Shown piece after piece: positions 1,694-61,115 of a stretch of DNA of 64,000 bases. Below the pieces are notes generated by a model. The model was given only the letters and a program-made list of their open reading frames with translations, was not told the DNA's origin and made no database searches. The stretch lies in the NCBI GenBank assembly GCA_964036665.1, contig OZ038527.1, forward strand, positions 15,283,835 through 15,347,834, written 5' to 3'. This DNA comes from Gordius sp. MW1. Taxonomy: Eukaryota; Nematomorpha; Gordioida; Gordea; Gordiidae. Numbering within the stretch: the stretch's first letter is position 1; each line of letters starts with the position of its first letter. The position numbers were made by a program, and so were the translations under genes.

Positions 1694-4600
1694 CTTCACG
1701 GATGGTGTGAAATATTATAACCCAATGTATATAGATAGCCACAACTCCGCTCTTTACGTAGGATCAATGTAAGCGTTTATCATATTGAAATTAGCTGTAA
1801 TCGCAATTTACAAATCACATGTGTATCCTTTATCTCATAAATTTGAAAGATAATTTTGTCATTAAATATACATGATGCAATTATTTTAACAGGAACACCA
1901 TATACAAATTTGACCTCTATAACATATCGAGAGATAAAAACGTAAGTTAACCCTTTTTTGTAATAAGTAACATCAATTAATTGATATTTTTTAGTATTTC
2001 CACAAAACCGTTGTCCCGCTGGATTCTGACGTCGAATTATGCTTGTCCAAATTTGGGCCTGAAAATAATGTAAATTAAAACGTGTTGTATATTAAATGTT
2101 CGACATTATAGGCATATGACTGTCAAAATCATTTTCGCGTTATTGAGAAAAATGCCGATGGGAGAATATACGCTTGCGCCACCGGTTCTCATGCTCCTAA
2201 GGATTATCTTTTTGCAGTAAACTTATATATAATATTTATTATATAGGAATTTTATTTAAATGCTCAGAAGAAAGTTTAAGAATACTGAGTATTATATACT
2301 TTTAAAAACTGGAATGCTTAAAACTTTATTTTGCATCCAATTCTATGTTGAGCTTTAAAAGGGTCAAAAAATTTGTTGAGTGGAAGTATTTTTTAACTAC
2401 AAGAAAGGGGGTAATGAAAACTGGAAGTATGCTATTTATATTTTTTTAAGTGGAGAAAGTTTTTGGTTTTTAAAATGGCAAATATGTTTTAAGGATCTGA
2501 GTTCCCTTAAATTTCTCTTCATAAATATGTTTACAACTTCGTAAAGGTCCCCGTGCTAAAATTGTAGAGCCAAAACTAAAAACTGCATATTTGATAAATG
2601 AGTAACCGATTGCAGAATTATTAAAAAACGAAATTCCATCTATAACGGGATAAGTAATTTTTTTCTAACAAAATGTTGGATATCTTGTTATTATATGAAT
2701 TGATTTATTTTATTAATAAGGATAATCTTGAAAAATATACCACATATCCTCCCGAAGGCATTGGCGTTGGTAAATGCCCTTTCGATCCTAGGACATCGCA
2801 CGCCTATGTTTGGTCAAGTAAGGGAGATTTTATATCGCAGCAAATTAAATATAACGCGTTTTAATTTATCCTTGTATTAACTAAAAATTTAATCTAAAAT
2901 TGTCGTCTGAAAGATAAAGCAGCAATAATTTATAAAAACATGATTTTACCCCGCGTTAAAAACTAGTAATTAATATAAAAGGTATTTCCTACTCCTTTAA
3001 TTTTTTGTTTAATATATTATTAATGTTAAAATTGCTTTTGACGATTATGTATGTATATAATTATGCACCCATATTAAAGGCACCAATAATCCCTTCAATG
3101 CACAAACCATATATTCTGGAACGTTCAGGGATATCGATAAATTGGACGCATTTATATACCGGCCCCCCATTTATGAACAACCGGACGCTCAGAAGCAATT
3201 GATCCCTTTCATACGAACAGTTACGCAAAGCCTAAAGGTGTTAAATGGTAATACATGTTTTGTTTAATTATTCAAAGGCTTGATCGGATGATGAATCAAT
3301 AATATTTTTAATTTTTTCTATGATAGTGTTGCTTTCTAACCTCGTTCGCTTGCTTATAAGGATGAAATTTTTAAGCCCGTCTTTTTTAAGCATATACCGC
3401 TTCAAAAGTTTTTTAAAACAAATTAGAAGTTTGGGAAGGTTTTAAAAGCATGCAATTTTGACGAAAACGTTAACATTTTAGCCTATATCTGATAAATTTA
3501 CGAATTTAAAAACTAATGTTGGATATTCATTTAGAACCGGAATTCGTGAAGGCGATTGAGCTAGAGCATTGCGTCTACTTTTTTTTCAACGAAGTAGCGA
3601 TCGAATCTACGCAATGCCAGGAAAGTAACATCGTGCCTACCGTAGCCAGAATTTGTAAGAAGGATAAAGGTGGCTTGAGTGTATCGACTAATTATTGGGC
3701 AACTTACGTTAAGGCACGACTTAACTGTTCCTACACCATAACCGACCATACATCTAATTCCCATAGAGTGTATTTCAATACGTTGAAAGACGTGTACAGA
3801 TCTCACGAACCACAATATCAGAAATATCAATTCTACGCGCTCTTCGAAAATACGAGGTAAAAGCAGCCATTACTTTTAAAACCTGACGTTTTAACCTAAA
3901 TTTTAACGGGTATTAATAATGGAGTTTTTATTTGGATATAAAACAAGCTTTGTAAAAATAAGTCCCAAAACTAAATTTTATAAGGGTGAGCTTACACCCG
4001 GTTTGACGAGTTTTCGTGAATTAAATAATAATTTTAAGGTTTGGTTGGATTTACATCAAAACATACTCTGAAGGCCATAATTTCATCTATTAATATGTTT
4101 AACATTAATTTCTAAACATGGAGCGTTAGCAAAATGTTCCTCATTTTTTTAGCAAACGTTGTGAAAACACCTTTTATTTTAGTTGACAAATATTATCACC
4201 TGCTACAAATAAACGTGTCATTATCCAGCTATGGGTGTAAATTTCGCATACATTAAATCAATCTTTTTTGCCTGGTTTCAGGGAGTTATGCGGCTTTCAC
4301 ACATTATAAACCTAATATAGACAAATTTATTTCCCATTTAAAAGTATAATAGCTGAGAAAAGCTTCTTTCTAAAAGAATAATTGGGCTCTGAATTAATTT
4401 TTATTTTACAATAAAAATATCGTTTCCCGTTTTTGGTGAACCCCTTTTCTAACGCTTAAGGCCAGCCGATTGATTCAAAACTCAAAGCATTAAAAAACTA
4501 AAAACATTTTAAAAATTCTTACATTAACATCAAATGAATATTCGCTATTTTATTTAAAGGGATCAAACGACGACATCGGCCATTTGCGTTTTCAACTTTT

Positions 4601-7175
4601 TCGACGTTGACAAGGCTTTGAAAAGTAGTTTCATGAGAAGGCAACACGCCCACTCGCCTTGGGTTGCAGTACCATCAAATGAAGTACCGGGGCTCATAAG
4701 CAAAAATAGACAAGTAATTAGAGATCTTTAAAGGCTCTTTAGTAACCAAAATCAATTATATTAATTGCTATGCAATTTATGGGCTCGCTTTTGGTTGTCC
4801 GTCCTGTCCAACTTTTAATTTTCCAATAACTGCCGTGGAAACTTATACTGGGTTTTAATGGCTGTGGACTATGCTTCTGTAAAAGACCTTTATTTTGCTT
4901 TCGCAAAGAGACTCGCTAATGACTGCTTGTTGGCTTTGATTTTTTTAACTCGCCCGAACCCAATATTCATTATTGCTGTTGTGCCCGACTGATTACCTTT
5001 ATACATAAATTTCTTTGGACAACTTGTCCAGGTTGTTGCTTTTATCGAATAATTGCGAAACTGGCTAAATGATTCCGGCAAATTAATAATGACTGTTGCT
5101 TTTACTTATCTGTCCTCGGCCAAAGGCCAAAATTCTTGTTTATTGTTATTTATATTTGCTGCTTTGTGTATTTATTTTGCCAATTTGTCTAGTTTCGTGC
5201 TTTATAACGGCTGAGTGCGAAACTGGCTAAATAATTCCCCGCAAATCAATGATGACCGTTGCTTACTTTATATACTATCGTTTGTTCCATTATAACGTTA
5301 TCTAACATCTTTCGCGTTTTATTTCTTATAATTACTATGCCGGTATAATGTTGCTAAAGAAAAATCATTCAATTTAATATAAATTAGTGTACAAACGAAA
5401 CAAATACACATGAATGGAGTGAAGATGCTATATACTACATGAATGAGCATCCGTTAGTTCAAAACATTGTCCAGCAAGAACTCCAAGAACCAATTTTCGT
5501 GCGACAGAACGTAGATTTTAAAAAGATAGTTTTGGATCAAACTGTTGGTTCTGATCAAATCGAGCCATACACTTTAATATATGCCATCTCCGGTAAAAAC
5601 ATTTTAAAGGCGACCTCAATTATTAATTACTAGATAGTGGAAAACTCTACAAAATAGTTTATTGGTACGAAGAAAATGGGACATCGAAATCTAATATTAT
5701 TAGCTCACAACACGTATTCCATAATTCGGTCGTTAATCAGATAGCCATACTACCGGTATATATAAAATATGTCGATTAAATTATGTATGATTATGTGCAG
5801 GCTAAAAACATATACATAACAACGAATCACGAAGTATTGCAAATAAATGTTTATCAATGTGAAATGTATTCGCTCTGCGCTCAATGTATCAGAGATCCAC
5901 ATTGTGGATGGGATAAGTACAGTGGCGTTTGTGCGACGTGGACATCGGAACAATCAGAAAAGTAAATTTTTACTATGTCTTTTAAATCTAAAAATGTCAA
6001 TTATAAATTTTTAGTTGTTCAAACTCGTGCGATGCCGACTATTCAAATAGTTATAATTTGAGAGTTGTTCTATAATATTATGCTGTAAAACATTACTTGT
6101 TTTCAAACAAATTTTATCTTAATTTTAATCACACCATTTCTAATTAGTATCTAGATGGTATAAAAATTCTCTCTTAACAATTTTTCCCTACAAAATATGC
6201 ATTTAACAAAAAGATTTCTTAATTTTCCTTGATTGTTATAACTATAAATTTATTTTAAGAACAAATTTTTTAGCATTAAAATGCTCTAAAATTCGTACAT
6301 GTATCAAAAACATGTATTAAGCTAAATAAAAATTTAGAGTTTAAGTTAATTAGAAAATTTGTAAAAAAGCTGGAATATTTATAGTCCGCGTAACAGAATA
6401 AAATAATCTACAAGCTAATTCAGCTGTTAGTGTGGGTAATTACTTATTTTCACATATTTTTAAGTATTGTCTAAAATATGTATTTTTTATTAAACAAGGT
6501 TAATACAATCTATCAGAGCGGAGACGGATAGCCTATGTCATATAGGTAATTTATCGAGTTATTTCTTAATGTAAAAATGTATTAGATGAAAAGTTTTCCA
6601 CGTTAAAAGTTACAACGCTGGAGGCAGTATTAGGAGAATATGTGCATTTAAAATGTGATATTCCGCCTTATTTAAAACCCTCTAATGCCGTCGCAGAAAA
6701 TCCCTTCGTGGTGTGGTATCACAACGATTTAAAGATTAAATTCAACCAAGATCATATGCTACAAACCATAGACGCCGGTATAATATTACTCAACATAAAT
6801 GGGTCGAGTGCCGGTAGCTACAAATGCATGATACGGCAACAAATCATCAAAAAATACGAATTGAATATCGATCTGAGTAAATTTATTCCCATCTTAAAAA
6901 GTCCTATTTTTAATGCAATTGTTCCTAAATTATCCTCATTTAAAAACCATAAACAAACATTAGCATAACTCATATGGTATATTTTATTTATATCTGCAAC
7001 AAGTATACATTTTCTACCTTTCTTTATAGCGTCCTGCTCACTAATCAAAACGAAAGAAATGTATACGGAAAAGTACAAGGAGTGGTGCAAGGAATTCGAA
7101 AATTACAAAAGGGAATTCAGCGTATGGAAGTTACGGCACAAAGAATGTCAAACTAACATAAAAAATAATACTTGA
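1694..7175 (+). CDS. Sema2: Semaphorin-2 type secreted guidance protein (5' partial, 14 exons)
   Basis: Secreted ligand for plexins, acting in axon and cell guidance. Exons: 1694-1768, 1893-1941, 1995-2069, 2112-2216, 2721-2817, 3080-3247, 3535-3856, 4560-4713, 5388-5592, 5634-5755, 5801-5961, 6015-6049, 6586-6876, 7030-7175 (TGA 7173-7175). All junctions are in phase, giving 667 residues. The Sema domain covers about residues 1-470, with the family motifs LYVGS, GVGKCPFDP, IYSGTF and WATYVKARLNC. A PSI domain follows (CIRDPHCGWDK, exon 11), then one Ig domain (exon 13: LKCDIPP, VVWYH, GSYKCM). The C-terminal tail YKEWCKEFENYKREFSVWK is the Sema2-specific end. There is no membrane segment, as expected for Sema2. 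The protein is divergent: residues between the cysteines are often replaced. The signal peptide is missing from the model. The donor after exon 12 (GTTATA) is weak but is the only one that fits phase. Confidence 0.9.
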
Positions 7176-7273
7176 TAGTATATGGATTGGCATACAATTA
7201 GCTAGTGCAATATATATATGTACAAATATATACCATGTGAATGTATATTATTTTGTTTCGAAATATTCGATCG

Positions 7274-10200
7274 TCATAATATATTTATCTCGTTTTCGCA
7301 AAATTTATTTATCCATTCTGGACAATTTTCCTTGATTTTCTCGATGATGTGGTTCATGTCATTGCACAAATTTTGTATAGGAATTATTTGGTTGTAGTTT
7401 GATCCTGGTGAAAAGTTGTGATAAATTAAGGTGTATTAACATACTCTTAAAATGAACGAAACTTTTGATTTGATCAATGTGCCCTTCCATTCTGCCCTCT
7501 TTGATCATGTGTGACGCAATCATCTCAACCTAGAGAAAATGTTGAAAAATTGGTGTAAATATAATTTTAGAAACTTTTGTAAACGAGACTTGTGTACCAA
7601 TCTCATAAGGATTTTTGTTGGAAATTTGATAAAATCGATTTTTACAATGTGGCAAAAATTAAGGAAATTTTGTATATATAATTATTATGACAAAGTTGCA
7701 AAGTATTTATAATAGCTTAATATAAAAAAGATGACCTAAATTATGGAAGCAAAGTTGAATTTAAAACATTTGAAGACACAAATTTAAACTAAGCATCTCC
7801 GACAATTATTTTTGTTTATTAACATTACAATTTTTCAAAAGAATATCATATAATGACTATGGTTAGGTGGAAGGAGGTAGTGGGAATATTTAATAGTTAA
7901 TTTGAAAAAGTATAGTTTATGTATTTAGAATTATTTTTTAGCTTGCAGAACTCTAAAAGTTAAACGTGATGATAAAAAAACACAATTAAATTATATTTTG
8001 TATAATCTTTTACATTGAAAACGGCCTTTAATGAGTAAAAACGCTCGATAACTTTATAGATTAATGTAAACAATAATTGAGAATTAAAATTATCTACTTC
8101 TTCCGATGGTATATCTAATAATTTTGACAACTCGCTAAATGATATATTTTCGTAAATCATACTGGCCGATAGTATATTGTGCTGCACGATTGCCCTCTCT
8201 AATATAGTGGTTCCTAACAAAAAAGAAAATATATAATTAATTTCTTAGACTGCACGGTTAATCTATACAAATCCCAAATAAATTCTTGTGAACCACCAAA
8301 CTCACACTATTACAATTTTGTAGAGGCATTTAATGATTTTATTAATTTAAGAATAACCGTCCAAAGTTAATGGCATAAAAACATTAAATTGTAAAAAGCA
8401 AACTAATGCTTTTTAATAAAAAACACAATACATTTTCCCACTTATATCCATTACTAGATTCATGGGCGCGGCCAGGAGGGGGGCAAAAAGGGGCGGCTGC
8501 CCCCTCTAAATCCAAAAATTTGTTGTAATTTTCTAAATCATTATAGCCCCCCTCTAATCCCAATGCTGGCTACACCCATGACTAGATTAACAAACATGAA
8601 TAGAAGCGTTAATTTACCGTCCGTGGTCAAGGCAATTTGGTGTAGAGATAGGTGAGGTAGAAATGCTTTCATTTCTTCCCTACGTATGATACGGTTCAAG
8701 TACCTAATATTAAACAATCTCATTAAGTGAAACAATTGCTACAACGCTAAAAATAAGAAATACATATATAATAAGAGGCCTATTAATAACAAAAAAATGT
8801 ACATCTTTTCGAGAATGCCAAAACTTGGTAAACATTGACACCGTTCATCCTTATATAGGTTAGCCAACATTCTCGACCTTTGGGGTCCTAAAGTAATTTG
8901 CAAACAAAAATTAATTCAATTACCGGCCGATGCTAACACAGTACAATGAATCGCTCTGTTTAAGTATTCTAATCGCTCGTTTTCCGGCAGATCAGATTTG
9001 TAAGATATTTCCAAATAACGTTGGGCTGCTTCCAAAAACTTATGTCTATGGTCTAAGACTTTGGCATAGCACTTCTAAAAATATTTAATGATTTAATTAT
9101 AATTTATGAAGATAATGTAAATCAATTCCATTTAAAGCAAAAAGTAGTTTTATTGAGATATAGATTCTAGATAATAATTCTTCGGTTTATTCAGCTTTAA
9201 ATGCATACTAAAAAAGCGTAGACAAGCGATTCAAACTCGCACGTCTCTTTCAAGAATCCTTCGGCTTCTAACGGGTAATTTAACAAGGCCAACGTTTTTC
9301 ATTTGGTCACAACTTTTCTTAACGGAAAATGACAATGCGATGGCAGAGAAATCACAAAATAAAAGGTCGTTCTTAAAATAGTTTAGTTATTTTCCTATTG
9401 ATTTCGCTTAAAGTAAAAAACGCTAGCCTTTTTTAAAACTAATAAATTAATACATCCAACTAGACATAAAAATTATTATTTAAATGATATATATTTTACA
9501 AATTTAAAGCAAGATTATAAATTTCAAGAGTTGTTTTGAAGAAGCCGGGGTTAAAAAGAGGTATTTTAATTTTATAAAAGTCCTTCCTGAAATTTAAAAA
9601 ATATCTAAGCTGAAAATTTACAACAAAGGGGTTAGAAATCAAAACTTTCAACGTACCTTTTTTTTGCCCTGGGTCAAAAAAGCTATTTTAGTGTGTTAAT
9701 TTCCAATAACAAGGTTCATATTTTTAAACCCTGACTAGAATTCAATTAGATTTTTTTAGTTACCTCACCTTTAATTTATTTGTTGCACAAAGAAAACTTT
9801 TATTTGAAAAAATCTTAAACCGTTTAATCAAGCTAATTATTTTTCCCGATAATATTTGTAGCCCGAAAAATTATTAGGATTAAATAACATTAATAATAAA
9901 CAAAAATATCCTATAAATTGGAAATGGATTCAGGTTAAAGCTGTTTAAAGTAACGCTCTAGCCGAAAGGTCAAAATTATATTTATATCTGGATTTTGCAT
10001 GAATCTGATTTTAAAGAGCTTGATAAAGATAATAATTCACGGGGAATCGATGGTAAAATAATACAAAAAACAAAACGTACGTTAATATCAAAATAGCTCC
10101 TGTACACAAACTTAATTGGATAATATAATAAAACCGAGCAAATTCAATCAAAATATTGTTTAAAATGCTGGTTGTATCCATAATTTAAACAAGATCCTAA

Positions 10201-47300: not shown

Positions 47301-50300
47301 TTATTCATTCTCGATGTGCAATAATTTTTAAACACGTTTTTTCCTCGAAAATGGGCTCATGTAGCCCAAAATATTAGAACACCATTCCACCCACTAAGCC
47401 AACGTTCTTATACAAAGTATTGAACATTTTTGAGTTTATTATTGCTATTGTAACAGATATTTCTTGGAAAGTCAAGCTCCTACCTTAATATTATTTTTTT
47501 TTTAATTTTTGGCCCCCTCAATCGGTTCTGAATTAATCCCGATTGCCCATAAAGATGCTCACTGCCAAAATTTGGATTAATATTTTAAAAGTGGATGCAA
47601 GCCTGCATTGGACTAACCATACGCGATGATCTCTTTACTAGAATTATACCTCGTTTTAGGGTCATAGTAGAGAACATCAATAATTCTTTGTTTCAAAGTT
47701 GTTTCCAATTGATTTTTATCGGCAATAGTTTTCGTTTTAAAATCATTGAAATTAATAAATAATTCACATTTTGGTTCGACGTATATTGCGACAAATAACT
47801 CGAGTTGATGTAATTGCAAAATAATTTCGCTTGTAGATTGTATATAAATTAGAATTTGTTCGATGTCCAAATGATTTGCATCCACTAAATCTAATTTTTC
47901 ATTAGAAGCCATCATGTTTAGTAATAAATTTTCAATTAATGCAGAAATATCATTATTCTTCTTTGTCCATTTAATAATAAATTTATTAATAAGAATGTCT
48001 TTATTTATTAATATCGTTTGTAAGGTCGTTTTATAACCATCATTCTCTATCATTCTCTGACATTGCATTATGAGAGATGAAACATACAAATTTGTCGCAA
48101 CGCATATTTGATCAAAATATGCCTGAATGTTGTTGTTAAATATTTCACTTTCTTTTCGATTTTTCTCAAGGTTAGAATCAACCATTTTAATTATGCTTTG
48201 ACCATAATCACAAATATTTACATGTTTAAATAGTTTGAAATTTTGGGGAACTAACATTTTTTGATCTGCACCATTATTTGATACCATTTTATAAACCTTC
48301 AAGACAGATTCGATCTAAATAAATGTAAATAAAAATATTGTTTATTGGAACATTATTTTGATTGCCAAATAATGTATTATATATAGTATTAGTAAAATAA
48401 ATTACAACATTAAATTAGCTAGTATTTTGGGAGGTAGGCACTCATTATAATTATACTTGGTCAATTTTGGAATTTACGTCTTCTTCTATGAAGGAATAGA
48501 TGTGATTTATTTCAATTGATTTGCCAATTGACGTGAAATAAATAATCGAATCTTTTAAATTATTATTCCAAACTTTTAAATATTTTCTCATAAAATGTGT
48601 TAAAGCTCTAAATTTGTCGTCCGAAAGAAACCACAAATTATAATTTCCAAAGTATTGCCCGAATATGGAATATATTTGAAAATCTATTTATAAATTAATA
48701 AACCAATATAGAAATTTGTCCAAATTTTTAAATTAGCAATCAACACATAATTATAATATTAATACTACCTACCGCAAATAAACCAAGCGTGAGATTCTTT
48801 TTTTTTCAAGGGGCCCAAATTTTTAAATAAAATTACTTAAAAATCCCCACAAATTAAGTCTCATCATAGTCTCATCGTAAAATATAAAGCGAAATTGCGT
48901 TTAAGTCTTAAATAGGAAACTATGTAGAGGAATGGAAGTTAAGGGGGTCATAGTTGTTAAGGGGCGGTAAAAGTTTAACCCAATATTTATATTAATTAAT
49001 ACTCATATAGATCTATTTTTTTATGAAATAAATTAAGAATTAAAGGCGTTTTTACAACTTTGATATAAGCAATGTCTAAGAAATTTTATTACCACATTCT
49101 TTATTTTAATACATTGCATTTTGCGGCAATATGAGATTCTATACCATATGAAAAAAATGTCTATCGAAATTAACAAAACCTTAGTCAATTATAATTCGTA
49201 ATTTTTTTTATGACCACTTGTCACATATACCGGTCGTCAGCCTTTTCAACATTAATCTTCATTTGTCTCGGTGCCCTATCAACTCGCCGAAAACCATCTG
49301 GCCTAATTTAATGTCCCCCGGTTAAAAAAGGTCTCCTATTTTAAAATCGTCCCCCAGGGGACCATTTTTAACAGGGGGACATTAAATTCGGCGAGATGCT
49401 TTTCGGCAAGTTGACGGGCCACCATTTGTCTCAATATTTAAACATTTCATTAAGTATCTTGTCTCATATCATGTTTTATTTTGTTCCTCTCATTTCCTAG
49501 TCTCTCTCTATTCGCTATTATCAGGCGCGTAGCCAGGATTTTCTCAAGGGGGGGGGGAATTTCAAAAATGTTAAGAACTTCATCGGGAGTAGGAGCTAAC
49601 TCCCGATGAATTGTCAATAAAGCCAATCCATTTAATCTATTCTTAGACATGGTATTTCTAATGTCAGTTTTTAGCCTCCTCAGCGTTGAGAAGCTATAAA
49701 AAAATATTTTTAATCTTTGCCAAGGGGGGGGGAATTTCCCGTTTTCTTCCCCCTTATTTACGCCACTGGCTATTATCTTTGTCTTTATAGACCATAGACG
49801 TATAATACCCGCTTTGACATTTAAAGCAATTTTATACGTAATATCTTATAAGAAAAGTTAATAATTAAAAATTTTATGAAATAGATCTTTTGAATACAAT
49901 TTATTTTAGCCCCTTAGTGAGTCAAATACACATTACAAAATCTAAATTCTCCCTACTTTCTACTCTCAGAAATGCCTTCTTTCATTTAATGATTATTTTT
50001 TATTTACTTTGGGAAAATTTATATAATAGGCAGTTTGGTACGATGCATATTTGACTTAAATTTTGTGACTTAATTACAGTTAAAGCACTTATTGCAGAGT
50101 CCTTGGCTTGTTAGAGATAAATATATTTTATATCCAAAATTTTTAGGAATATAAGAAATTGTTAAGATCGATAAATTCCAGCCGTTCCCACACCGATCGT
50201 AAAATTTAAGGCATAAACGCACACAAAATTATATGGGCTTGAAAATAGAAGAATTATTAAAATTGAATACTTGCAACTTCAACATATATCCCGAGCATAT

Positions 50301-53960: not shown

Positions 53961-54271
53961 GGCCTGGCTAAACCTATTTCGCAACGTTAAGGTACGTTAA
54001 AACTACATAAATATTTATAAAAAAGGAGCGATCTAGTAATTTTATACTACAAACAAAGCATCACGTCACGACAGTTGTCTTAGGACTATATAACAGCTTT
54101 CACCTTTAACTAAAAGCGCGCTGTCACAAAACCATCAAAAATATTTTTGCTACATTAGTAATTATTTTTCTGTAGAAATGAAGAGTTTAAAAAGGTTATA
54201 TTACTATGGCTATTTATTATATTTTTTTAATTTCAGGCTTGGTATAATAGTTTTTAAAGAACATTATTAAT

Positions 54272-54508
54272 CTGTTATATATGTGTTATATATATGATGT
54301 TGTATATGTGTTGTTGTATATTAGTATATCATTGTATACAGATTATATGATTGAATATTGTAAGCCAAAATCCGAGTTGGCAAAAAAGGAACATATGTTT
54401 TTATCTACTTAGCTTATACATTTCTTTTGTTCATATCTAGTTTTCCCTCCCCGGCCTTAGACAACAATAAATTCTATTATTTCCTATTCTTATGATTCTT
54501 ATTATAAA
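54272..54508. repeat. Direct repeat copy 1 (left of Helitron)
   Basis: About 237 bp, nearly identical to 59867-60111; a shorter, more diverged copy lies at 59587-59790. It starts in GTTATATATGTGTTATATAT and includes CCCTCCCCGGCCTTAGACAAC. In copy 1 the repeat stops at the Helitron and resumes at 58741, so the Helitron landed inside it. Confidence 0.9.
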
Positions 54509-55146
54509 TCTATATATATAAAAATCACGTGAAACGGTGTTAGGCATTAAACTCCTCCGAAACGGCTGGACCGATTTATATAGAAATTTCCGCGAATGAT
54601 TGGTAGGTCTGAGAATAGGTTTTTAACTATATTCCAAATTTCTAAGTGATAAGACGGTCAAGTTATTTAGCTTTATACGTTTTGACGTTTACTAAAATGT
54701 CACTCAAACGCCACCTCATGACGTATACTGCGTATCTATCGTGTTGTGCATGTATTCTTCCGCACGCAGTATTTGCAAAATATTTGTTATACATAGCAAA
54801 AAAGATATTTGTTATTTGATTAAGATGGATTGTACTTCGCTGACCTCATCTTTATAAGAACTTTTAATATATTCAATTTAGAAGGCTTATCGAAGTAAAT
54901 TCCAAAATAATTTTTTTAGGTTCACAAAAATTTGCAAATGTCTTTGTTGGTTTATGGTTTTTTATTTCCAAAAAAGTTTCATACGGACTAATGTACAACC
55001 TAACAAGTCAAATACATAAGAGAGGGAATATAAATTATATCCTGAAGACGATTTCTATCAGCATGCTCTTAATGCATGAAGAATATAAGAAATATTTGGA
55101 TTTCCATACATTTGCTACTTAAATGGAGGAGGGTCCTAAAATGACT

Positions 55147-55165
55147 TAACCCTAACCCTAACCCT
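55147..55165. repeat. Interstitial TTAGGG-type repeat
   Basis: Three consecutive CCCTAA units inside the Helitron. This is the hexamer of most animals, not the TTAGG of most arthropods. It is very short and could be chance. Confidence 0.5.
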
Positions 55166-55629
55166 ACAAAACCTGCCCTTGCGAGTCCGAAATCACAATA
55201 TGAAAACGTGAGTAAGAAATTTTGTTTATTTCTTACGATTTGTGTTTTTCCGAATGCGAAAAACACTAATCGGCGCTTTGTTATTTTTTGGATCGAATAA
55301 GAAAATGGGATGTCAGATCGCTTATACAGTACAAGAATTTGGATCGTGTAACATTAGTCCTCCTTAATCATCTTAAATTAAACTAACTAATTTTGAAATT
55401 TATATTTATAAAAGTTATATGAAATGCTGTTACAATTTATTTTTGTATTGATCATAAGTTTATTATTTCTTTAACTACCTATTTTTCTAAAAGCTTAAGT
55501 GAATTTACAATATATAGAATGTCAAACAACATGTGTTTTTTTTAATTATTTTCTTTAACTGCTTTATTGTGTCATTTATATTTATTGTTTGTTAATTCAT
55601 TAGATAATTAATATAAATTCTTTACTCAA

Positions 55630-56265
55630 TATTGTTAAAGATGAAATTACTCCCACTTAATCTTGCTACTGGCATTTAAGATGACTATCATATAAGGTTA
55701 TTATTAAGTTTTAAAAGTAAGGTATATTATTATAATCGGTTTGCATTAAGAAATATTAAAAGAAATTTTATTGGTAAGGGAATGGTTTTTAGAATATATT
55801 TCTCTAAATCCCACATCATATCTTATATTGTTAAAGATGAAATTACTCCCACTTAATCTTGCTACTGGCATTTAAGATGACTATCATATAAGTTTATTAT
55901 TAAGTTTTAAAAGTAAGGTATATTATTATAATCGGTTTGCATTAAGAAATATTAGAAGAAATTTTATTGGTAAGGGAATGGTTTTTAGAATATATTTCTC
56001 TAAATCCCACATCTTATCTTATATCATGGGCTTGAAAAATTTTTTTTTTCATAAATTAGGGGGGGGGGGCAAAGATGAAATTACTCCCACTTAATCTTGC
56101 TAATGGCATTTAAGATGACTATCATATAAGTTTATTATTAAGTTTTAAAAGTAAGGTATATTATTATAATCGGTTTGCATTAAGAAATATTAGAAGAAAT
56201 TTTATTGGTAAGGGAATGGTTTTTAGAATATATTTCTCTAAATCCCAAATCTTATCTTATATTAA
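55630..56265. repeat. Three tandem copies of a 196-bp unit
   Basis: Units start at about 55630, 55826 and 56069 with AAAGATGAAATTACTCCCAC and end near CTTATCTTATAT. They differ by a few bases. Copies 2 and 3 are separated by about 45 bp (56025-56069) that begins CATGGGCTTG and ends in a G run, a truncated CATGGGCG-family element. Confidence 0.88.
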
Positions 56266-57539
56266 TGGCCCAACTACTGCTATTTCATTTAAGCAAATGC
56301 ACAACCTGTCATCCTTTCTCCCACATATTAAGGATAGAGCCCTATAATTCTCATTAAAGAGTTTTTGCTACAATTTAATTTATATATAGTTTTTTTTATG
56401 ATCTAGCCCCCCCCCCCCCCCCGGGAGAAAATTCTGGCTACGCGTCTGATTGACCTTGAGCCTTATTAATTGTCAATGCGAATGCCAATCTAATTGGAAA
56501 TTGAATAGTTCAAAAAATATCATTTTTCCCTTCCCTAAAATCAATATATATAAGCACATGAATATTCATGAAATTAAAATATAATTTATATATACCCAGT
56601 AAATAATATATTTAAAAAGGAAAATATCTCGAAAGATATCTTAAAAGAAAGATGTACCTTTTGCCTAATAATAATGTAAGATAGAATGTCATCCAAAAAA
56701 TGCAATTTTTATTTGTTGCTGAGGGGCTGAAAATCAACAAATACAAAGCCTTTTTAACTCTAAAATTTTTTATCCCTTTGGTCGCTTCGTGTTTGGGCAC
56801 CTTTGGTAAACAGGTTTTAACCTATTTTATGTATTTTTTTTATATTTCCGCAACTATTTTTATACATATTCGAACTCCTCCCTCCCCTGAGACCAATCGC
56901 ACATATAATCCCTTACAATTCTAAGGATCCTTCTCAAGTGGACTACGCCGATTTATAATCAACATACGTATCCTCGGTTCTTTGGTGTTAGGTAGTGCCC
57001 CCGGGCCCCGTGTTGTTTTTTGTTGAGCATTTAACCTAAACTCTTCTACACTTCGTTGAAAAACATTTCATTTGCTGTGAAATTTAAGCAGGGGAGAAAA
57101 CGGACCTTTATGTTTTAGGGCTTGGCTACGCATGCTTATACCGGTTGATTCAAGTTTTAATTAATTATCTGAGTACACTGATAGCTTATTGACTAAAGTA
57201 AGGTTTGTGGGCAATTTTAAACAAACAAAAAAGATCTGCTTAGGAAGTTAAAGGATATTCGCATGTTTCGGAAATAACCGAGATTAATGATGTTGCTCCA
57301 GGCTCGATTCGGGCGCAAAAATAAAAATGGCTTTTTGCCTCGGGCCGGACTACTCATACAAATTAACGTAAGACAGTGGTCATTTTATGGAGCATTTTAA
57401 ACCTGGACTGTGGATTATTAAAATAATTAAATAAAGATAGAATACATGTGAACAACAAAGTGAGTTAAAAAAAACCTTATTTTTTTTCGAACTTGACATT
57501 ATGAAAATAAATTAATTAGGAATTAAAAATTGATTTAAG

Positions 57540-57925
57540 AATGGGCATTAAACACCAGGGAAGGAAAGCTTATAAAAGCCACAGAGATGAGAATTCTACG
57601 GTGGAGCTTGGCGTAAACTAAGCTCGACCGACTTTCTCATGTCACAAATGAATATTCAACCTATGGCGGACATGATTAACGAAAATCGATTAAGGTGTTA
57701 TGAAGATATACTAAGGGGGACACGAATGACCTAAATCGAAAAGTGCTGGACATGGAGGTGCCGGAAAAGTGAGGAAGAGGACGACCCCATGTCACATTGA
57801 AGGGGCAAGGCGATTGTTATGAAAACTAAAGAGTAGTCAAGACATGGCACTCAACCGGTCAAGATGAAAAAAACTTATCAAAACAAACCCCACGACTGTG
57901 GGACCAAATAACTGATAAAGAAGAG
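57540..57925 (+). pseudogene. Non-LTR retrotransposon 3' relic inside Helitron
   Basis: Colinear with the 3' part of 60170-61115 at DNA level (ATTCAACCTATGGCGGACATG, then AATCGATTAAGGTG), but with different indels and stops. No intact frame remains. Confidence 0.7.
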
Positions 57926-58859
57926 GAAGATTCAAACAAAGGCTTCACACCTGTACCCCGGTGGGGCTGCCCCTCTAAACCTTAAACCCCTGTCTACTTG
58001 CTGTCTTTGTGTCGCCTTATTAGGGTCTTCTAAATTCGTATGGGAGCATTCATTTGCTATGCAATTTAAGCAAGAGAAAAAATTAACGGAGAGGGAATTG
58101 AGGGTATAGGGTCGGGCTACGTCTATAATGGTACCTGTTGGCCTAAACTACACAATATATCAGCAAAACATGATAACAATGAGACCTTATTGCAATAAAG
58201 CTCGGTTGGCGGCCATTGATATACCTAAAGTTTCTAAGCTGATGTAAGCAGAATTGTAGTTTGCCCAAATTAGTGAAAAGCTGGACGCGCTTAAATATGT
58301 TCAGGCGCAAAAATAAAACAGATTTTCAGGACGGGTTGGGGTTTTGATTGAAGTCCGAAAACGGTCATTTTCCAGAATCGTGATTTTGCGGTAGGACCTA
58401 AAAAGGTTTTTAGCATCTTTAAAAAAACAAACCTGTGGCAATTTACAAATTAAATAATTCTTTAGATATGTATGAATTTATTTGACAGTATATTTATATA
58501 GGCAAAATGTGTAAAGCAAAGCAATAAAAAATTTGATGTTAAGTACTTTGCTTTATGTGTTTATATTTTGTATTTAGCGTGTTAATTCTTTCTACATTAA
58601 GTTCGTGAGTTATTTCCCGTAGGACAATTACATTTTAATCGCTCATTATATGATCGAGGCAAAACGATGAGCATGCACATCACTTATAGTATTTCAAGAA
58701 ATAATGTATATTGCAAAACAACGTTTGCCGGGTCAGCTAGTATTAGTAGATTATTAGAGATCTAATAAATGGTGATAGTGAAAGAAGAACTCAAGCCTTA
58801 ATTAAACCAAGGTAATTGGACAAAAAGAGTGAAGAAGAAATTCAAAATTCAATGCTTAA

Positions 58860-59180
58860 TTCTAAGGAGGAAAAGAGATAATAATATGAACTTATGATGA
58901 CAATTCAAGGAGAATTCAAGGGATAATAAGAACTTATGATGTTAATTTGATGGATAAGGAACATTATTATCTCATAATAATATGAACTTATGATGTTAAT
59001 TCAAGGAGAATTCAAGGGATAATAAGAACTTATGATGTTAATTCGATGGATAAGGAAACATTATTCTATGGATGTGGGGATAATTATGTTAATTCAATGA
59101 GAATCCAAAGGATAATAAGAATTCAGGATGTAAATTCATTATTCTAGGGAGATCATATCAGGATGTTAATTCATTAATCT
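58860..59180. repeat. Degenerate minisatellite, about 95-bp period
   Basis: Repeats of GGAGAATTCAAGGGATAATA then AGAACTTATGATGTTAATT recur at about 58907, 59003 and, more degenerate, 59080-59170. Function unknown. Confidence 0.75.
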
Positions 59181-59255
59181 ATGGATATGGGAGGATGGGA
59201 GTTTGCCCAACTTAAAATAGAAAACAACATATGAAATTAACCCTGCCACTAGCTT

Positions 59256-59465
59256 CCCCAAAATCCACTTGTCCAAATCCACACCCTCAAACCCCCATAT
59301 TTCTCCTTCTGACAATTTCCATCCCATCTTACCTTCCCAGCTAATCCATTCTTGGAAATAGCATCCCCAGAATCCACGTAGTTAAGTCCACACCCTCAAA
59401 CCTACAGATTTCCCTACTGATAATTTCCATCCCATCTCACCCTTACAGCTAGCCCACTTTTAAAG
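59256..59465. repeat. Tandem duplication, about 105-bp unit
   Basis: Two copies (59256-59363 and 59364-59465) share CCACACCCTCAAACC, GATAATTTCCATCCCATCT-like and CAGCTA segments with moderate divergence. Confidence 0.7.
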
Positions 59466-59586
59466 TTATGGAATGTTAAACATTGTTGTTGGAGTGAATG
59501 CTCGAAGAACAAAACCAGGAGGAACCTTCATTCTTTAAGAGGAAAGATCTTGTATATTGGTGATTCATTCTTTAAGGGGAAAGATG

Positions 59587-59790
59587 TTATATATGTGATA
59601 TATATATGATGTTGTATATGTGTTGTTGTATATTGGTATATCATTGTATACAGATTATATGATTGAAAATTGTAAGCCAAATCCCTGTTGGCGAAAAGGA
59701 ACATATGTTTTTATCTAATTAATCTTTCTTTTGTTATTCATATATATAGAGTCCCCACCCCGGCCCTAGTTATTACTTCTCCTAATCTAT
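59587..59790. repeat. Direct repeat copy 3 (partial, diverged)
   Basis: Shares GATGTTGTATATGTGTTGTT and the following 150 bp with copies 1 and 2 but with more substitutions and a missing right end. Confidence 0.8.
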
Positions 59791-59866
59791 AAAATATCAT
59801 TATACTATCTTTATCTTTACTTAATAAATGATTATCCTTAGATTAGATATTATTGATTATTTTTAA

Positions 59867-60140
59867 TAAATAAGATGTTATATATGTGTTATATATATGA
59901 TGTTGTATATGTGTTGTTGTATATTAGTATATCATTGTATACAGATTATATGATTGAATATTGTAAGCCAAAATCCGAGTTGGCAAAAAAGGAACATATG
60001 TTTTTATCTACTTAACTTATACATTTCTTTTGTTCATATCTAGTTTTCCCTCCCCGGCCTTAGACAACAATACATTCTATTATTTCCTATTCTTATGATT
60101 CTTATTATAAATATTAGTAGATTATTAGAGATCTAATATA
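59867..60140. repeat. Direct repeat copy 2 with empty Helitron site
   Basis: Continuous through the position where copy 1 is split by the Helitron (the junction lies after 60111), then continuing ATTAGTAGATTATTAGAGATC as at 58741 onward. Confidence 0.9.
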
Positions 60141-60169
60141 ATCACTATCTACGACGGTCCCAAGCCCGT

Positions 60170-61115
60170 GTACAAAAAGTGGAGGGTTGGCGTTTGAAAA
60201 ATATTTATGAAGTTCGAACTCTTGCGTTAGGACGACAGTTGGAGACTCCAAACCTTTTCGGGTTAAAATTGATTTACATCAAAAATCTGCTTTAAGTCCC
60301 TTTTTATTTAATATAATTATAGACACGATAACGAGAGATATTCAAAAGCCATCGCCATGGTGTTGCTATATGCAGATGATTGTACTCTGCGAGGAAACAA
60401 AGGAGAAAGTATTCGAAGAAGCCGAAAAGTAGTCAAGCGCTTAGCTGGATAGGGTTTAAAGGTCAACGATCGGAAAACAGTATACATGGAAATGAACGTT
60501 ACGGGCAGCCCATCGCTGGATGACCATCTAATGTACCCAAAAGTAAACAGGTTTACATAACTAGGCTCGATGCTACATCAAGAGGGAGGTTGCGCAAGAG
60601 AAGTCAATGCCCGGATCCAAAATGGATGGCTTAAATGGCGAAGTATATTAGGTGTAATGTGCGCAAGAAAATGGCAATATGGTTGAAGAGCAAAGCTTAC
60701 AAATCCAGCGTAAGACCGGTGTTACTCTGTGGAAGTGAAACATAGAAATTAAACACCACGGAAGGAAAGCTATTACACGCCACAGAGATGAGAATGATAT
60801 GGTGAGGGATATACTAAGCTAGACCATATGACGAACGACTTTCTCATGAAAAAAATGGGTATTCAACCTATGGCGGACATGATCAACGAAAATCGGCTAA
60901 GGTGGTATGGGCATATACTAAGAAGGAACACGAATGACGTAAATCGAAAAGTACTGGACATGGCGGTACCGGGGAGGAGAGGAAGGTCACGTGGAAAGGA
61001 CAGGTCGATAAAGTTATGAAAACTAAAGAGATTAGTCAAGACATGACACTCACCCGGTTTAGATTATCAAAATAAACCCTACGACTGTGGGACCAAATAA
61101 CTGATAAAGAAGAAG
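60170..61115 (+). pseudogene. Non-LTR retrotransposon reverse transcriptase relic
   Basis: SALSPFLFNIIIDT (about 60286-60330) and LYADDCT (about 60366-60386) are the B and C motifs of a reverse transcriptase palm. The C-terminal frame 60828-61019 has MINENRLRWYGHILRRN. Many stops and frame changes lie between. It belongs to the same family as 18471-18984 and 57540-57925. Confidence 0.82.

Follow-up and report, generated by a model that had tools for sequence, protein, structure and literature searches.

A recently multiplied non-autonomous Helitron in Gordius sp. MW1, its empty site, and a Rep-helicase element with related ends

A non-autonomous Helitron of 4232 bp, bounded by TC...CTAG, occupies positions 54509 to 58740 (plus strand) of the 64,000-nucleotide stretch of Gordius sp. 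MW1 DNA analyzed here, referred to below as the window (C1:15283835-15347834; the genome comprises 211.8 Mb in 12 contigs). Sister copies carry the same ends, and an empty counterpart of its insertion site is found at 60111|60112. The ends, the empty site, the family, and a Rep-helicase element with related ends were all observed directly, and they bear out the sequence-only reading, which had described a complete non-autonomous Helitron with its empty site nearby. We are highly confident that the element is a canonical (Helitron1-type) non-autonomous Helitron, presumably moved by the Rep-helicase of a partner, whose interior was acquired as cargo before the family expanded and which received a MITE insertion later.

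The element starts with TCTATATATATAAAAATC (its first 18 bases) and terminates with GGGTCAGCTAG; an A precedes it and a T comes after it. The 5' TC, the 3' CTAG, and the insertion between A and T are thus as first described, and all three recur in sister copies. The earlier claim that the ends are fixed to the base holds only in part: the empty site exists, but it defines the ends only up to one base, because T is both the first base of the element (54509) and base 58741; by convention the element is read as TC...CTAG flanked by A and T. A short subterminal hairpin is likewise present before the 3' end (58713 to 58728, plus strand, 12 nt from the terminus), with a 5-bp stem formed by 58713-58717 and 58724-58728. 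It is weak, however, with a folding energy of -2.7 kcal/mol, and 89 of 200 shuffled sequences were at least as stable. Twenty-two stop-to-stop ORFs of at least 50 amino acids overlap the element; a Pfam scan of six of these gave no match at an E value of 0.001, and the element apparently encodes no protein. The truncated hAT fragment proposed for the interior was not confirmed, since the six scanned ORFs lack a Pfam match and the sole similarity of the hAT candidate elsewhere in the window extends over 38 bp, at 49520-49557.

With the terminal 200 bp of each end as query, 722 candidates were obtained for the 5' end and 858 for the 3' end, 40 of each being scored. From the scored candidates we paired by eye at least 24 copies with both ends in the correct order and on the correct strand. 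Twenty of the 24 paired copies, that of the window included, span 3.5 to 4.7 kb, and the other four measure 6.1, 7.3, 9.7, and 12.0 kb. The two longest of these were considered as autonomous elements on account of their length and rejected, as both carry nested insertions. Ends at other positions in the copies would have undermined the boundaries, but the copies did not bear this out: in all eight 5' loci the element begins at one and the same base, just past an A, and CTAG|T stands at 29 of 30 3' loci, the exception (L038) being an end that reads CTA|T, which was excluded from the flank table. Over the last 1.6 kb, pairwise divergence among 24 loci averaged 1.4% (median, 1.2%; range, 0.2 to 6.0%), a low value that indicates a recent expansion of the family; a more distant group (L032, L034, L036, and L037) shows 89 to 91% identity over the last 1.5 kb. 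A 26-mer pattern for the 3' end, allowing up to two mismatches, matched 1151 sites in the genome and a 23-mer pattern for the 5' end matched 109, with no match for either reversed-pattern control; the 3' end is therefore common to many more elements than the family of the window element. At one locus (L023), two family copies lie head to tail with 4 bp between them. The copy at C6:23020824-23032833 (L077 and L078) contains a nested insertion of ∼7.4 kb with a 1254-amino-acid open frame inside.

The sequence-only reading had left it undecided whether the interior pieces are captured cargo or later insertions; comparison with the sister copies assigns the 196-bp array and the non-LTR relic to the cargo and positions 55135 to 55359 to a later MITE. 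The three tandem units of ∼196 bp (55637 to 56269, plus strand) are real, and so is the non-LTR retrotransposon relic (57547 to 57924, plus strand), which aligns over 390 columns, at 78.5% identity, with 60748-61113, a region outside the element; a peptide from the latter region matches the relic in tblastn with an E value of 2e-14. When the element was compared with its copies by BLAST, the array and the 3' 1.7 kb, which includes the relic, were found at the same position in sister copies, mostly at 97 to 99% identity. The number of 196-bp units varies, with three in the window and five matched in both L071 and the 12.0-kb copy. The outside region belongs to a decayed non-LTR retrotransposon at 60211-61113, kin of the relic inside the Helitron, with fragments resembling reverse transcriptase; its YADD string we read as reverse-transcriptase-like, and a 73-amino-acid piece of it gave no Pfam match.

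The remaining piece, a left-truncated MITE of 225 bp (55135 to 55359), has a different history. The uninterrupted site, without the 225-bp stretch, was matched in 10 copies, placing the insertion after the family had spread; in three further copies (L003, L006, and L007) the motif for the uninterrupted site was unmatched, yet these also lack a copy of the insert. Among the loci examined, the insert is present only in the window copy (L001) and in L002, where it sits at a different place. The L002 insert (1945-2264, reverse complement) is a complete MITE of 320 bp; its inverted ends are 28 bp long (27 of 28 positions equal), a 9-bp duplication, TTATTGGTT, flanks it, and it contains an inner run of CCCTAA units. 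A 9-bp target duplication points to a Mutator-like source, and that of the L002 insert suggests such a source, rather than hAT, for the MITE at 55135-55359. A hAT-like insert does occur in the 9.7-kb copy (L069), with an 8-bp duplication (CATTAGAT), CAGTGGTTCTTAACC-type ends, and a 653-amino-acid frame that weakly matches DUF4371 and the hAT dimerization domain, with scores under the curated cut-offs. The alternative that the internal pieces in general are later insertions into the window copy is thus correct for 55135-55359, and nested insertions such as that in L069 lend it some plausibility; since sister copies have both the array and the relic-bearing 3' 1.7 kb in the same place, we consider it very improbable as an account of the interior.

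A non-autonomous element calls for a partner, and the proposed search for an autonomous element with the same ends yielded a candidate on the minus strand of C1 (5' end at 10902616, 3' end at 10890709; 11,908 bp), flanked by A and T. Its resemblance to the window element is confined to the ends. The 5' terminal region of the window element (54509 to 54756, plus strand) is common to Rep-bearing elements and is 87.8% identical to the C1 candidate over 237 bp and 92.7% identical to a second element, L075, over 248 bp. The 3' terminal region (58703 to 58740, plus strand), recovered by the 26-mer pattern search, matches both as well, with 97.0% identity to the C1 candidate over the last 33 bp and 92.5% to L075 over the last 38 bp. 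The C1 candidate contains a complete match to the Helitron Rep profile PF14214 (1-191) and a nearly complete match to PIF1 helicase (2-220), each in a stop-free frame of 1046 amino acids; 701 amino acids of the frame were read, part of the interior being covered by L057, L080, and L081, and the PF14214 match has an E value of 2e-57. Translations of L057 and of another locus, L079, contain the strings HAH and YICKY, which we take to be the HUH Rep and two-tyrosine motifs of the kind of protein that mobilizes canonical Helitrons through a circle. Judged from its termini and its coding content, the C1 element is likely to be the partner of the window Helitron.

Other candidates were set aside. 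L075 and L044 combine Rep with related ends but have no helicase among the matches listed nearby, and they were counted as derivatives. L079, a Rep-helicase frame on C6, was dropped, as beyond the first 18 bases it gave only short and weak matches to the element. In its own right, L079 encodes (3947-8260) a stop-free Rep-helicase protein of 1437 to 1441 amino acids, part of another Helitron-like element, with TCTATATATATAAAAATC occurring twice upstream. Across the genome, the Rep profile gave at least 150 scored matches and the PIF1 helicase profile (PF05970) gave 154. We asked how often such matches lie within 8 kb of the 5' ends, using 150 matches for each profile (out of 154 for helicase) and 100 of the 109 5' ends, so that the counts are lower bounds. 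For helicase, among the 100 ends listed, at least seven had a match downstream on the same strand, against none upstream and one on the opposite strand. For Rep, the corresponding counts were at least seven, two, and two; the Rep linkage thus amounts to no more than 7 as compared with 2 and 2 in the controls, and we count this against the favored explanation.

Several features that define Helitron1-type elements are found here. The 5' TC and 3' CTRR termini occur in the window element, at 8 of 8 5' loci, and at 29 of 30 3' loci; the genome contains a Rep-helicase element with related ends, and helicase matches are linked to the 5' ends (7 of 100, against 0 and 1). Insertion between A and T without target duplication is seen at the empty site and in the flanks: T comes next after 790 of 800 exact 3' ends (CGTTTGCCGGGTCAGCTAG) and a different base after the other 10, the T background in the window being 35%, and all 16 of the 5' flanks examined, those of the C1 partner and L075 among them, terminate in A. 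Internal tandem arrays are reminiscent of DINE-type elements, and the array at 55637-56269 is the only feature that speaks for placing the element in the Helitron2/Helentron/DINE branch rather than among the canonical Helitrons. As described, Helitron2 inserts at TTTT|T or C and Helentrons insert within TT (PMC5148889), a rule that the A|T insertion and the TC/CTAG ends contradict, and there is little chance that the element belongs to that branch.

Set beside known systems as these are described, the element recalls the bat Helraiser/Helibat1 and HelibatN (PMC4778049), which share TC...CTAG ends, A|T insertion, a Rep-helicase partner with non-autonomous kin, and a preference for AT that is strongest on the 3' flank. 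The host differs, and the hairpin is weaker here than the 19-bp palindrome described for Helraiser; furthermore, the copies studied here are natural ones, and their 3' flank shows, a few bases in, a definite motif of the ATATA type. The insect Helitrons Hel-2 and BmHel-2 (PMC4344730) are alike in their TC/CTAG ends, flanking A and T, lack of protein, and internal tandem arrays, but the Hel-2 consensus as described is ∼250 bp, far from the 3.5 to 4.7 kb of most paired copies here. The Lep1 Helitrons (PMC4038834) are likewise non-autonomous, insert between A and T, and have gained sequence; their description differs in having CTRY termini and acquired 3' sequence that ends in CTRR.

The host sequence interrupted by the Helitron is an LTR-like repeat, LTR1, with its left part at 54273-54508 and its right part at 58741-58767 (both on the plus strand). 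As the sequence-only reading proposed, this repeat is split at 54508/58741 and has an intact copy nearby: LTR2 (59876 to 60138, plus strand) is uninterrupted, with the junction at 60111|60112, and differs from LTR1 at 2 of 263 positions. Outside the pair, TAATC stands as a direct repeat of 5 bp (54268-54272 and 60139-60143), and by this layout of 263-bp repeats with TAATC outside them the Helitron-bearing segment at 54268-60143 is a small LTR-type element, for which TRIM is presumably a suitable label. The LTR-like repeat is dispersed, with at least 44 matches in the genome among those listed. Two matches on C3 (query 7-274 and 11-273; 96 to 97% identity) cross the insertion point, 246|247, so that the uninterrupted site is present in three copies. 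The idea that the "empty site" is a misassembled copy or a chance repeat, and the ends not real, has in its favor that the repeat copies are 98 to 99% alike and that the uninterrupted one starts ∼1.1 kb past the element, but it can be dismissed almost entirely, given the two differences in 263 positions, the two C3 copies of a dispersed repeat that cross the empty junction, and the finding of the same ends in sister copies whose flanks are unrelated. Relatives of the LTR-type element elsewhere also lie in pairs, with four direct pairs 830 to 932 bp apart and some pairs in opposite orientation, and a third, diverged partial copy of the repeat lies at 59581-59770, shortly before LTR2.

Beyond the A and T themselves, the flanks show a one-sided preference. 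Within 32 3' flanks, ATATA was found in the first 16 bases of 21 and in the next 16 bases of none, against a background of 6.3% at AT sites in the window; on the other side, 1 of 16 5' flanks had it within the last 16 bases. Genome-wide, 424 matches placed ATATA 2 to 8 bases past the T and 49 placed it at 30 to 36 bases, both figures including overlapping duplicates. A hand count of the first 100 of the 790 ends (on C1) gave 38 with ATATA 2 to 8 bases past the T and 2 further out; compared with 4.1% of AT sites in the window, the 38 correspond to a p value of 6e-27, which serves only as a guide because the copies are partly dependent. The one-sidedness agrees with the behavior of Helraiser and sharpens it: its 1,751 insertions in HeLa cells favored AT and AT-rich DNA within ∼20 bp, most strongly on the 3' flank (PMC4778049).

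The ATATA motif in the 3' flank resembles the 5' end of the element itself. Moreover, 19 of the 3' ends join exactly to a Helitron-like 5' start, TCT(A/T)ATATATAAA. At L020, the junction is followed by sequence resembling a Helitron 5' end (TCTTATATATAAAAATG...CAGACCGATTT); the 1.5 kb past this junction yielded no second 3' end (CTAG preceding T or A), so that the second sequence at L020 is Helitron-like by its start only. The second sequences at L020 and in two further matches of the ATATA search diverge from one another within 40 bp, which suggests that they represent separate events. A CTAG directly joined to a TC start has been described for adjacent head-to-tail Helitrons in maize (PMC2267711), as one case against the 19 exact junctions to Helitron-like starts here. 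The description leaves the order of insertion in the maize pair open; among the options it names is canonical insertion at an AT composed of an A from the host and the T of the resident element. A Helitron of Fusarium sits 2 bp upstream of another (PMC5148889), and tandem arrays have been cited in support of rolling circles (PMC5876387). For Helraiser, an AT-rich stretch near the cleavage site at the left end has been described (PMC4778049). We tentatively raise the possibility, which we regard as rather doubtful, that the Helitron protein selects sites that mimic the place of cleavage at its own left end (A|T and then TATATAAA-like DNA). The 5' termini of resident Helitrons would therefore be favored for landing, and some of the head-to-tail Helitron arrays would be products of such canonical insertion and not of rolling-circle read-through. 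Left-end mimicry as a target rule was not found in the titles and abstract openings searched, which cover few subscription journals and are weak evidence of absence.

For the window element, the canonical Helitron explanation would run as follows, with the partner's role inferred and the rolling-circle steps modeled on the Helraiser work. A Rep-helicase protein made by the partner would nick the 5' TC end, one strand would be peeled off up to a stop at the 3' CTAG end, and the copy would be joined between the bases of an AT dinucleotide, with no duplication of the target. In this way the window copy would have entered the 5' LTR of the small LTR-like element, between an A and a T. The 196-bp units, the non-LTR relic, and other apparently non-coding DNA of the interior would have been acquired before the family multiplied and would travel along, and the MITE would have jumped into the window copy afterwards. 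Besides the Rep linkage, we count against this explanation the ordinary hairpin energy, the likeness of partner and window element at their ends alone, the CTA|T end of L038, and the 10 of 800 ends that do not precede T.

We conclude that the element is an ordinary, recently multiplied canonical non-autonomous Helitron, and that the sequence-only reading was right in the main. Its value lies in the natural data set that it opens up: hundreds of exact 3' ends, an empty site within the window itself, and a Rep-helicase element whose ends are related. The flanks supply a one-sided natural target motif, in agreement with the 3'-side AT preference of Helraiser in human cells, and have a bearing on the formation of tandem Helitrons. 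It is the target preference that deserves to be pursued, as these Helitrons often sit just before AT-rich stretches that resemble the front end of the element itself.
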